Source of the DNA: a virus
IMG/VR virus record: IMGVR_UViG_3300049484_000377
Coordinates: 1 to 29,761 of that record
Strand: one strand, 5' to 3'
Length of the DNA stretch: 29,761 bases
A program made the translations under genes and the position numbers. The notes beneath the pieces are model-generated. The model worked only from the letters and a program-made list of their open reading frames with translations, was not told where the DNA came from and searched no databases. Shown piece by piece: positions 6,726 to 21,402 of this stretch (positions are counted from its first letter, which is position 1; each line of letters opens with the position of its first letter).

Positions 6726-6842
6726 ATGGGTTTATGTATATATTTGTTGTTTATATTGTTGTGTTTTTGTATTGGCTATTCGATAAGAGCAGACAAGACC
6801 GAAGAAAAAAAGGAAAGGAAATTTAACTCAGAAAAAAGATAA
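6726..6842 (+). CDS. small single-pass membrane protein
   Basis: I prefer ATG 6726, with GAGG 5 bases upstream, giving 38 residues. In-frame ATG 6669 and TTG 6636 would give longer forms. The product is one hydrophobic segment (MGLCIYLLFILLCFCIGYSI) followed by a highly charged tail (RADKTEEKKERKFNSEKR), so a membrane peptide with its tail probably in the cytoplasm. No family recognised. A lysis-related or superinfection role is possible but not shown. Its stop lies inside the base of the RNA-like stem that begins at 6841. Confidence 0.5.
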   Translation: MGLCIYLLFILLCFCIGYSIRADKTEEKKERKFNSEKR

Positions 6843-6938
6843 GTGCATATAGGTGCCGTGGAATGGCTATCTGCGGAGAATTGCTGCCTGTCGGAGCCGA
6901 TTGGCGACTTAAAAAAAACAGCCTATATGTGCTTTTTT
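6841..6938 (+). ncRNA. candidate structured RNA with terminator-like 3' end
   Basis: Bases 6841-6854 can pair with 6921-6934 in a 14-pair stem (core GTGCATATAGG with CCTATATGTGC, including G-U pairs), and the stem runs into TTTTTT at 6933-6938. The enclosed 66 bases can form smaller hairpins: 6855-6857 with 6865-6867; 6873-6876 with 6884-6887; and 6890-6893 plus 6897-6898 with 6903-6908. An A8 run (6911-6918) lies near the closing stem. The plan of several hairpins closed by a long stem and a U tract resembles a small phage RNA or a leader element. It is not a tRNA: there is no T-arm consensus and the spacing is wrong. The pairing is seen; the function is inferred. Confidence 0.45.
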
Positions 6939-6947
6939 GAGGTTAGT

Positions 6948-7646
6948 TTGGAATTAGAAATAACATTAGAAAACAGACGGTGTTTAGGATGCCGAAAGAT
7001 GTTCAAAGTCTCCACCAGGAGCCAACAGAAGTATTGCAGTCAGATGTGCCAGAAGTACAGGGAAATGTATGGCGCAGTCCTGAGTCACTCGAAAAAAGAA
7101 GACTTAGAAACAACCAACGTCACCGTGAGCGTTACTGGACCGACGAAGAATACAGACAAAAGAGCTTACGTCGAAAGCAGCTTAGCCACATGGCGAACAA
7201 GGAAAAAGAAAATGAGCGAAGAAGAAAATACTACGAAGCCCATAGAGATGAACACTGTGAGCGAAGAAGACAATGGGATAAAGACAATAGAGAGCGAGCC
7301 AGAAAAACCCATAGAGAATATTATGCAAAACACAACAGAGAGCAGCGAGATAAAATCAGAGAAGCAAAACACCGGAGAAATCCAACGATTGGACTCTATT
7401 CTGCCATCCAACATTATAAAGCGGGACGTATTACGTTCGGGGAGCTTGATCTCATCTTCCGTCAGGCACATGAGGCAATTAGCAATAGACTTGTGTCCGC
7501 TGGAGGAGTGCAACGAGATGAGGAGTCGGGACCTGTCGAAGGTGGAAATGGTTTGTCGGCTGTATGACGGAATACATAAACTTTTAAAAGTGCAGGTGGA
7601 TTCAATTAAGGTGATGAGTTCATTAGTTAAAGAGAGTGAAGAATGA
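6948..7646 (+). CDS. zinc-ribbon protein, frame overlapping another ORF
   Basis: I start this 232-residue frame at TTG 6948, where GAGG (6939-6942) gives good spacing. The longer GTG 6843 start would translate through the RNA-like stem. Cys12-x2-Cys15 and Cys30-x3-Cys34 (RRCLGCRKMF then QQKYCSQMC) form a zinc ribbon. The middle (about 55-140) is low-complexity Glu, Thr, Ser, Lys. The last 75 residues look like a true helical domain (SSVRHMRQLAIDLC to LSKVEMVCRLYDGIHKLLKVQVDSIKVMSSL). From about 7100 to 7480 the other forward frame looks more protein-like. The C-terminal part could be a separate gene from ATG 7470, or a -1 shift at the A6 run (7092-7097) could join the ribbon to the other frame. 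Confidence 0.55.
   Translation: MELEITLENRRCLGCRKMFKVSTRSQQKYCSQMCQKYREMYGAVLSHSKKEDLETTNVTVSVTGPTKNTDKRAYVESSLATWRTRKKKMSEEENTTKPIEMNTVSEEDNGIKTIESEPEKPIENIMQNTTESSEIKSEKQNTGEIQRLDSILPSNIIKRDVLRSGSLISSSVRHMRQLAIDLCPLEECNEMRSRDLSKVEMVCRLYDGIHKLLKVQVDSIKVMSSLVKESEE
6989..7567 (+). CDS. Arg-rich helical protein in the alternative frame
   Basis: This frame overlaps the zinc-ribbon frame for its whole length; ATG 6989 is the first ATG (GTG 6980 is also possible), giving 192 residues. From about 7090 it shows the periodic pattern of basic phage helices: ERRRKYYEAHRDEHCERRRQ, then NRERARKTHREYYAKHNREQ. A compact segment follows (PTIGLYSAIQHYKAGRITFG then ELDLIFRQAHEAISNRL). The pattern recurs in phage proteins where an N-terminal Cys4 ribbon precedes such repeats, which is what a -1 shift at 7092-7097 would produce here. 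The first 30 and last 25 residues do not look protein-like. No function assigned; nucleic acid binding is likely from the charge. Confidence 0.5.
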   Translation: MPKDVQSLHQEPTEVLQSDVPEVQGNVWRSPESLEKRRLRNNQRHRERYWTDEEYRQKSLRRKQLSHMANKEKENERRRKYYEAHRDEHCERRRQWDKDNRERARKTHREYYAKHNREQRDKIREAKHRRNPTIGLYSAIQHYKAGRITFGELDLIFRQAHEAISNRLVSAGGVQRDEESGPVEGGNGLSAV

Positions 7647-7759
7647 ATCATTTTTATCGAATTAAACTATTTTTGTCTATAGTGTGGCGCGAAGGGTATG
7701 CTGAACGGATTGATATAAAAACAGCGTGGTGCATAAGCGGCATTGTGTGGGGTGAGTAA
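7643..7759 (+). CDS. hypothetical 38-aa protein
   Basis: A short ORF whose ATG overlaps the zinc-ribbon stop (ATGA), behind GAGAGTGAAG. The product, MNHFYRIKLFLSIVWREGYA then ERIDIKTAWCISGIVWGE, has the look of a real small phage protein with a helix and an RIDIKTAW segment. No family named. The TAAATG junction at its end leads only to an 11-codon frame. Confidence 0.45.
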   Translation: MNHFYRIKLFLSIVWREGYAERIDIKTAWCISGIVWGE

Positions 7760-7797: not shown

Positions 7798-7980
7798 ATG
7801 GATTGGGTTGAGGCGCTTGGTATAGAAAGTATTCGTGAAAATAGTATGGCTGGAGATGCATGGTGCGAAGAGGCACTAAAATTTTTGGAAGCAAATTGGA
7901 ATACAAAAGTTTTGTGTCTTTCAGCTACACAGCACGCTTTTTTATTAAAAATATGTGCATATGTAAGGGATGTATACTAG
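7798..7980 (+). CDS. hypothetical small protein, duplicate A
   Basis: A 60-residue acidic helical protein. Its core (WCEEALKFLEANWN then LSATQHAFLLKICAYVRD) lines up with the product of the next gene (YWDSASDFIVENWN then FSTKQLGWMEKILEDMVE): same spacing, the shared ENWN-like motif and a Gln before the last helix. The pair therefore looks like a tandem duplication. No strong ribosome site precedes the ATG. Function unknown. Confidence 0.6.
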   Translation: MDWVEALGIESIRENSMAGDAWCEEALKFLEANWNTKVLCLSATQHAFLLKICAYVRDVY

Positions 7981-8189
7981 TGAAGGTTTTGGAATTTTTT
8001 AGAGAAGAAAAACTAGAACTTGCTGATATAGAAGCTGTGGCAGAGCTTAGTTCATATTGGGATTCTGCTTCTGATTTTATTGTTGAGAATTGGAATAGAG
8101 AGACTGAGACTTTTTCAACTAAACAATTGGGGTGGATGGAAAAAATTTTAGAAGATATGGTAGAGCTTAGAATAGAGGGAAAGTTATGA
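7980..8189 (+). CDS. hypothetical small protein, duplicate B
   Basis: Start chosen as GTG 7980, overlapping the previous stop by one base, with AAGGGA upstream. Extending upstream to 7860 would read through the preceding gene in another frame. The 69-residue product (VKVLEFFREEKLELADIEAV and onward) is a helical acidic protein related to its upstream neighbour in its central 50 residues. Its stop overlaps an 18-codon frame not counted as a gene. Function unknown. Confidence 0.6.
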   Translation: MKVLEFFREEKLELADIEAVAELSSYWDSASDFIVENWNRETETFSTKQLGWMEKILEDMVELRIEGKL

Positions 8190-16448: not shown

Positions 16449-17297
16449 ATGTCTGACGAAGTAATGACGGCGGGAACAGAAACTAGTGTGATAGTACCTG
16501 AAATATGGTCGAAGAAGTATTATGACACTCTTTTGGCAGCACTACCATTTAACGATGTTATTGATCGTAGTTGGGAAGGCGAAATAAAAACTCTCGGTGA
16601 TACCGTGAAAATCAGTACGATCCCAGAGTTTGATGAAGGCACAGAACTGCCAGAAGCAGATCGAGCCGATGCTGAGGCGCTAACTCTGACCCAACAATCG
16701 TTGGTGATCAATAAGCGCATCGTGAAAGATTTTATCGTGACTAATACTGCTTTACTGCAAAGTTTACCCTTTGTTGATAAAGTAAAAGAATTGGCCGTTT
16801 ATTCGATCATGAAAAAAATCCAAGCAGTCATTATCGCTGCAATCTCTCCGAGTGCTTCTAATCCTGACCACACGATTGCTTATGACTCATCAACCACGCT
16901 AGCGTTGGCTGACGCTCTCGAAGTTAAAGAACTTCTTGATGCGGCTGTGGTCCCAGCTCCAGGCAGAAGTGTTGTCCTTGGTGCTGAACAAATTAATGAC
17001 TTGTTCAATATCACGGGATTTATGAGTAGTGATTTTGTTACCGCTGATAATCAAGGCGGACTGATCACTGGCGAAATTCCAAAGATGTTGCTGGGTTTCA
17101 AACCTTATTTGACAACCATCGTTGGCGACACCAGCTATTGGTTCCATCAAACCTTTTTCACAATGGCTTCCCAACAAGGCATGAACGTTGCGGAATTTGA
17201 TCTTGGTGTTGATGGTAAGCGTGCGAAACGTATCAATACAGATACCCTTATTGGTGTCAAACAACTCGATAACACTCGCGTTGTTACTCTCGCTTAA
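16449..17297 (+). CDS. major capsid protein
   Basis: A 282-residue protein following the scaffold. It has the shape of an HK97-fold coat protein: N-terminal arm, an E-loop region (DTVKISTIPEFDEGTELPEA), the long spine helix (LPFVDKVKELAVYSIMKKIQ), and P-domain and A-domain segments (VVPAPGRSVVLGAEQINDLF, GGLITGEIPKMLLGFKPYLT). It ends with a strand set, KRAKRINTDTLIGVKQLDNT. Length is at the short end for the fold, typical of a compact coat protein. The call rests on position and pattern. Confidence 0.87.
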   Translation: MSDEVMTAGTETSVIVPEIWSKKYYDTLLAALPFNDVIDRSWEGEIKTLGDTVKISTIPEFDEGTELPEADRADAEALTLTQQSLVINKRIVKDFIVTNTALLQSLPFVDKVKELAVYSIMKKIQAVIIAAISPSASNPDHTIAYDSSTTLALADALEVKELLDAAVVPAPGRSVVLGAEQINDLFNITGFMSSDFVTADNQGGLITGEIPKMLLGFKPYLTTIVGDTSYWFHQTFFTMASQQGMNVAEFDLGVDGKRAKRINTDTLIGVKQLDNTRVVTLA

Positions 17298-20881: not shown

Positions 20882-21127
20882 ATGGAACTAAAGCTCACCA
20901 GAAAAACAGTTAAGGTTACTTACGACGAGAAGACTTATGATGTTATGGTCCCCACCACGGACCAACTAGAGAAGTTCTCGGATTCAATGGAAAGTAAGAA
21001 GCCCAATGCTGCGAAAATCCTGCGTGAGCTTTTGGTTGACCTTGGATTGCCGGAGGAAATCATCCGATCAATGGACATCTGGAGTATGAACGAGCTGGTT
21101 GAGTTCCTGTCGGCAAAAAAAAAGTAG
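20882..21127 (+). CDS. tail assembly chaperone (gpG-like, unshifted product)
   Basis: An 81-residue protein between tail tube and tape measure: KLTRKTVKVTYDEKTYDVMV, then PTTDQLEKFSDSMESKKPNA and a helical end (ELVEFLSAKKK). Its last codons are AAA AAA AAG TAG, so the in-frame heptamer A AAA AAG (21118-21124) touches the stop. This is the arrangement used by lambda gpG/gpGT and most siphoviruses to make a minor longer form. The chaperone holds the tape measure and recruits tube subunits during tail assembly. Confidence 0.82.
   Translation: MELKLTRKTVKVTYDEKTYDVMVPTTDQLEKFSDSMESKKPNAAKILRELLVDLGLPEEIIRSMDIWSMNELVEFLSAKKK
21118..21124 (+). promoter_or_regulatory. -1 programmed frameshift site A AAA AAG
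   Basis: The heptamer is in the correct phase of the chaperone frame, lies inside an A9-G tract (21115-21124), and is followed at once by UAG. Both tRNAs can re-pair perfectly after slipping back one base. This is the strongest class of bacterial slippery site. Confidence 0.8.
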
Positions 21128-21402
21128 ACCTAACGGGCTGGGAATACTCGCTAGCTAAGATGGCCCGTTATTATGGTTTTGCTGATTGGGAGATGCGACA
21201 GATGCCAAGTACCGTTTTCAAAGCGTATTGGAACGCCATTGAGCGATTGCAAGCAGAAGAGTCCCTTCGAATAATCAGAGACATTAGTTTTCCGCACATG
21301 GAAAAAGAACACCAGCAATCTATTGATAGCGAATTAAAACAACAGGCTCATTTAGGAACAGAAATGAATCTAGATGACCTTGGGAGGCTTTTGAATGGCT
21401 AA
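21124..21402 (+). CDS. frameshifted extension of the tail chaperone (gpGT-like)
   Basis: A -1 shift at the heptamer ending at 21124 continues as VDLTGWEYSLAKMARYYGFA with no stop until 21402, adding 92 residues to give a 173-residue fusion. The extension (DWEMRQMPSTVFKAYWNAIE and onward) is a helical T-domain-like segment. There is an ATG at 21160 but no ribosome site close to it, so the fusion is the better reading. The stop overlaps the tape measure start by 8 bases. Confidence 0.75.
   Translation, partial: VDLTGWEYSLAKMARYYGFADWEMRQMPSTVFKAYWNAIERLQAEESLRIIRDISFPHMEKEHQQSIDSELKQQAHLGTEMNLDDLGRLLNG

Follow-up and report, generated by a model that had tools for sequence, protein, structure and literature searches.

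We analysed a window of 29,761 nucleotides, positions 1-29,761 of IMG/VR record IMGVR_UViG_3300049484_000377, a linear virus record of 29.8 kb. The window is a tailed phage. Its recognisable genes are listed in Table 1 together with the features of the two-frame locus, which lies among small genes with the HNH gene on one side and the terminase on the other. The capsid (16449-17294) represents a little-known lineage: metagenomic viral contigs (L004-L014) were the only source of relatives, at 50-61% identity, and its identity to capsids of thermophilic Bacillaceae phages was about 29%.

Table 1. Genes and features of the window; frame 0 is the frame of TTG 6948
Feature	Position	Strand	Description
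GH108 endolysin	5067		
RecT-like protein	5610		
HNH protein	6361		
Shine-Dalgarno GAGG	6939..6942	+	5 nt 5' of TTG 6948
Frame 0 ORF	6843/6948-7646	+	TTG start at 6948
Zinc-ribbon N-terminal part, frame 0	6948..7070	+	CLGC-x14-C-x3-C (RRCLGCRKMFKVSTRSQQKYCSQMCQKYREMY)
-1 frame ORF	6980-7567	+	stop at 7565-7567
Likeliest frame change	7068..7072	+	TAT|GGC; REMY (frame 0) then WRSPESLEKRR (-1 frame)
Basic helical region, -1 frame	7070..7567	+	WRSPESLEKRRLRNNQ...NPTIGLYSAIQHYKAGRITFGELDLIFRQAHEAISNRL...; randomisation, codon usage, AlphaFold
A6 run	7092..7097	+	TCG AAA AAA GAA; proposed slip site
Shine-Dalgarno GGAGGAG	7502..7508	+	9 nt 5' of ATG 7518; anti-Shine-Dalgarno pairing -9.3 kcal/mol
Probable separate 42-aa gene, frame 0	7518..7646	+	MRSRDLSKVEMVCRLYDGIHKLLKVQVDSIKVMSSLVKESEE; sequence and Shine-Dalgarno
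Terminase	11539		
Portal-like gene	12888		presumed from position and general knowledge
Capsid	16449		
Tail-chaperone-like pair	20882/21124		
Tape measure	21395		presumed from position and general knowledge

As a preliminary description of this DNA had reported, two long forward frames overlap here and an A6 run lies within the overlap. Frame 0 most plausibly starts at TTG 6948, where pairing with the anti-Shine-Dalgarno sequence reached -6.3 kcal/mol, compared with 0 to -0.9 at the upstream starts 6927 and 6843. Its N-terminal part codes for a zinc ribbon, also as described: two Cys pairs (CxxC and CxxxC, with QKYCS) are present, and residues 8-39 gave weak PHROG matches to phrog_2308 (E 0.0037) and phrog_3794 (E 0.004). 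Synonymous codon usage was poor in this short piece. Pfam searches (E <= 0.1) with either frame and with joined versions gave no match, and the HNH catalytic motif was absent. The ribbon and the Arg/Tyr/His repeats are not in one continuous frame, and joining them in this contig needs one -1 change. An antisense ORF at 7166-7651 was taken as a shadow, as nothing speaks for it. Just upstream of TTG 6948, a 95-nt element (6840-6938) is predicted to form a three-way junction with a 14-bp closing stem (GUGCAUAUAGG...CCUAUAUGUGC) and then T6, its folding energy being -33.5 kcal/mol (z -2.6); it resembles a terminator- or attenuator-like RNA and matched no Rfam family.

Both frames had been described as looking coding. 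We examined this by synonymous randomisation, in which the protein of one frame is held fixed while its codons are either re-drawn from the usage of the phage or permuted among the region's own codons. With frame 0 fixed over 7098-7469, the -1 frame was expected to contain 4.7 (own codons) to 13.0 (phage usage) stops, and it was open with a probability of 0.0007 or <0.0001, respectively. Frame 0 alone would thus leave the -1 frame full of stops, and it takes selection to keep the latter open. In the reciprocal experiment (-1 frame fixed, 7097-7468) only 0.6 (own codons) or 2.7 (phage usage) stops were expected in frame 0, with P(open) of 0.37 and 0.028; extending the region to 7565 gave 0.11 and 0.009. 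In the middle, therefore, frame 0 needs no selection to stay open, although the usage-based probabilities leave room for it. For 6948-7097 the -1 frame was open in 0.24 of the permutation draws (0.004 with phage usage), so this segment as a whole gives little indication of coding in the -1 frame. At the other end (7470-7566, frame 0 fixed) the -1 frame gave P(open) of 0.013 / 0.004, so that selection on it lasts to about its stop. In the other genes tested, alternative forward frames stayed open for at most 90 codons.

Synonymous codon usage over 7098-7567 was -0.017 per codon for the -1 frame versus -0.202 for frame 0, the latter worse than in any of the reference genes (-0.153 to +0.088). 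A combined codon-plus-amino-acid score favoured frame 0 in 7098-7400, but this score is dominated by the amino-acid composition of structural proteins and is uninformative for early genes of small size, with 0.04 for the neighbouring HNH gene. AlphaFold was run in single-sequence mode without an alignment, on each frame as it stands in the DNA. The -1 frame was modelled with a mean pLDDT of 79.5 (77 for residues 31-40 and about 84-98 for each block of ten between residues 41 and 170) and with predicted helices at residues 34-51, 55-133, 135-147 and 153-174, whereas frame 0 had a mean of 45.9 and an unstructured middle at 35-40. Charged helices rich in Arg and Glu gain high pLDDT easily, and the predicted terminal helix pair with its GRITFGELD turn is the more telling part of the -1-frame model. 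Foldseek with this model returned no match under E 0.1, long helices of this kind matching anything. These analyses show that coding in the middle uses the -1 frame, where the Arg/Tyr/His helical region had been placed, and that frame 0 there is poor, as had also been described, and mostly a shadow.

Overprinting, with both frames of 7098-7567 giving functional proteins, one basic and one acidic, would account for frame 0 being open over its whole length and for its P(open) of 0.009 under phage usage. The corresponding value with the region's own codons (0.11) speaks against such dual coding, as do a synonymous usage that was the worst seen and a frame-0 product that is low-complexity and predicted to be disordered. 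We consider it highly improbable.

The two frames had been proposed to be joined by a -1 slip at the A6 run, giving SHSKK-RRLRNN. In such a slip two tRNA-Lys on AAA AAA would move back one base, and the unshifted product would consist of the ribbon, an acidic tail and a helix. A -1 frame that is under selection yet has no good start codon at 6980 or 6989 is consistent with such programmed frameshifting, and this phage does possess a convincing -1 frameshift site elsewhere. In its tail-chaperone-like pair (20882-21402), the A9G run at 21115-21124 reads GCA AAA AAA AAG TAG; frame 0 stops at once (SAKKK stop) while the -1 frame continues as VDLTGWEYSLAKMARYY into the next ORF. It was already recognised that G_AAA_AAA at the A6 run is not a canonical heptamer and re-pairs imperfectly in the P site, and in E. 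coli even A_AAA_AAA is reported to be much less shift-prone than A_AAA_AAG (PMC5009743). No canonical X_XXY_YYZ heptamer occurs in frame 0 from 6948 to 7582; the sole one in the ORF, at 7583, comes after the end of the -1 frame. In intact genes the same G_AAA_AAA is read in frame, unshifted, seven more times (1054, 6147, 13260, 16812, 19388, 22580 and 22634), and at 1053-1062 it is identical including the following codon (G_AAA_AAA_GAA). The context of the A6 run is thus ordinary in this phage.

Signals around the run were examined as well. The 85 nt around and just 3' of it (7086-7170) folded no better than shuffled sequences (z -0.05), and no Shine-Dalgarno-like element lies 10-14 nt upstream. 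A wider segment (7040-7220) was more stable than its shuffles (z -2.5), which could favour recoding, but the helices predicted in it surround or flank the A6 run instead of standing at 3' spacer distance, and one hairpin holds the run inside. Frame 0 meets no nearby stop and continues for 549 nt past A6, and the coding signal of the helical region already starts 5' of the run. In a survey of frame transitions in prokaryotes, 4010 clusters were pseudogenes and 146 were recoding clusters (PMC3711429), and for this reason a lone transition without a motif is more often a mutation. Since the A6 context is commonplace in this phage, a programmed frameshift is less likely than a one-base indel; these comparisons do not support the proposed slip, and we regard it as quite unlikely. 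A variant in which a weak, non-canonical slip on G_AAA_AAA yields two proteins, one bearing a basic helical arm and the other an acidic disordered arm, as a form of charge switch, seems to us highly improbable. If recoding were nevertheless true, this phage lineage, itself poorly known, would have a programmed frameshift in a gene other than the tail chaperone, with oppositely charged products.

Where, then, does the frame change? A good region of the -1 frame had been recognised from about 7090. Such a region exists, and it begins earlier: the helical signal starts near 7070 (WRSPESLEKRR), about 20 nt 5' of A6, and the first predicted helix (residues 34-51) starts from 7079, also upstream of the run. 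When the two frames were joined at each codon boundary in turn, the segment matched the next repeat unit, RERYWTDEEYRQKSLRRKQ, best with the change after TAT 7068-7070, which gives REMYWRSPESLEKRRLRNNQ and scored 39 (shuffle P 0.038, uncorrected, with 31 positions tried), compared with a score of 29 (shuffle P 0.24) when the change was placed at A6. No slippery motif was found near 7068..7072. Reading of the repeat pattern thus suggests that the change most likely lies near 7070 and not at A6.

The -1-frame protein could instead have its own start within the ribbon gene, such as TTG 7034, and never be joined to the ribbon, an arrangement of separate overlapping genes that requires neither indel nor recoding. 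AGGAG at 7018-7022 pairs with the anti-Shine-Dalgarno sequence at -6.6 kcal/mol and could serve such a start, yet a TTG codon at a 12-nt spacing is weak. Furthermore, the 12 residues before W(7070) are unlike the rest and predicted to be disordered, and the ribbon gene would have to continue in frame 0 for 180 codons that are poorly coded. We consider this arrangement unlikely.

The C-terminal piece of frame 0 had been suggested to be a separate gene starting at ATG 7470. A separate gene is probable, judging from the sequence, with ATG 7518 as the better start: pairing with the anti-Shine-Dalgarno sequence at 7470 was only -1.9 kcal/mol and no Shine-Dalgarno sequence is present there. The TGA of the resulting gene overlaps the ATG at 7643 of the next ORF (ATGA). 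A helix was predicted over 7533-7640 with low confidence, and a search for homologues of the product found none. With a gene starting at 7518, no second shift would be needed to account for the good C-terminal part of frame 0, and with selection on the -1 frame reaching roughly to its stop codon, the two genes would overlap by 50 nt. Further downstream, two small ORFs (7798-7980 and ~7981-8189) adjoin and have a loose common pattern (FL..NWN / FIVENWN, LS..Q); BLASTP detected no similarity between them.

Taken together, we favour, with a probability of about 0.6, one ordinary zinc-ribbon/helical phage gene that carries a one-base indel near 7070, followed by a small downstream gene. Of the alternatives originally offered, an indel, an overprinted gene or three separate genes, the best fit is an indel near 7070 together with a small gene of its own at 7518. 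The first gene would encode a zinc ribbon leading directly into a long helical region rich in Arg, Tyr and His, in a single protein with a possible role in nucleic-acid binding. Many small nucleic-acid-binding proteins of phages, HNH-type ones among them, have this layout of a ribbon followed by a basic helix. A single -1 change between ribbon and helices (YREMY / WRSPESLEKRR) would have arisen by insertion or deletion of one base, either as a real mutation or as an assembly error. All 42 of the 42 A/T runs of at least six that lie well inside intact genes were in frame, which makes systematic homopolymer error unlikely; as the favoured place is not a homopolymer either, mutation or polymorphism is at least as likely as error. 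Past about 7070, frame 0 would be a shadow of the -1 frame; the purine-rich DNA and the scarcity of Leu, Ile, Val and Met codons for the basic protein would be the main reasons why frame 0 stays open. The 42-aa gene beginning at ATG 7518 would be coupled to the next ORF. The -1-frame product is a selected protein, a result equally expected under an indel. Purine-rich genes for basic helical proteins keep the +1-shifted frame open by composition alone, and long double-open stretches and short A runs are therefore weak evidence of frameshifting.

The comparison of both translations and joined versions with phage proteins, suggested at the outset, gave the weak PHROG matches to the ribbon and no relative of the gene; none was found among viral contigs, genome contigs, phages and plasmids, and accordingly no intact version in one frame was seen. 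The RecT neighbour, used as an anchor, gave no match. Terminase and capsid searches did retrieve related phage contigs (capsid identity 50-61%), one of them 37 kb long, in which the gene was absent or which were fragments stopping short of the region, and a capsid profile search of genome contigs found nothing. Degenerate patterns for the ribbon and for YWxDPEYR matched unrelated proteins of the same general architecture, which we treat as analogy only.

Three known systems bear comparison with the locus. Phage zinc-ribbon proteins of the CxxC...QKYCSxxC type (PHROG 3794 and 2308; loci L016-L022, and L033, whose ribbon protein carries KRKEQYWSDPEYRRK in one frame) share the ribbon spacing and the QKYCS..C..(Y)R signature, and their ribbon is often followed by basic or HNH segments; here, in contrast, the helices are in another frame, no HNH motif is present and the PHROG matches (E 0.004) cover the ribbon only. 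Among HNH-type phage endonucleases with Arg/Lys/Tyr helical repeats, the stretch WHAKHREENRERVKE of Pseudomonas phage PaMx28 gp09 (PHROG 7091) resembles the -1 frame, with 44% identity over 39 aa at an E value of 1-2 that is not significant and may be compositional; unlike the locus here, gp09 has no N-terminal ribbon and carries a C-terminal nuclease-like domain. With the -1 frameshift of lambda-type G/GT tail chaperones, the A6 run shares its direction and an A-run, but it has neither a canonical heptamer nor a nearby frame-0 stop, and its gene does not lie between tail tube and tape measure; the A9G site at 21115-21124 in the same phage is of the lambda-type G/GT kind.
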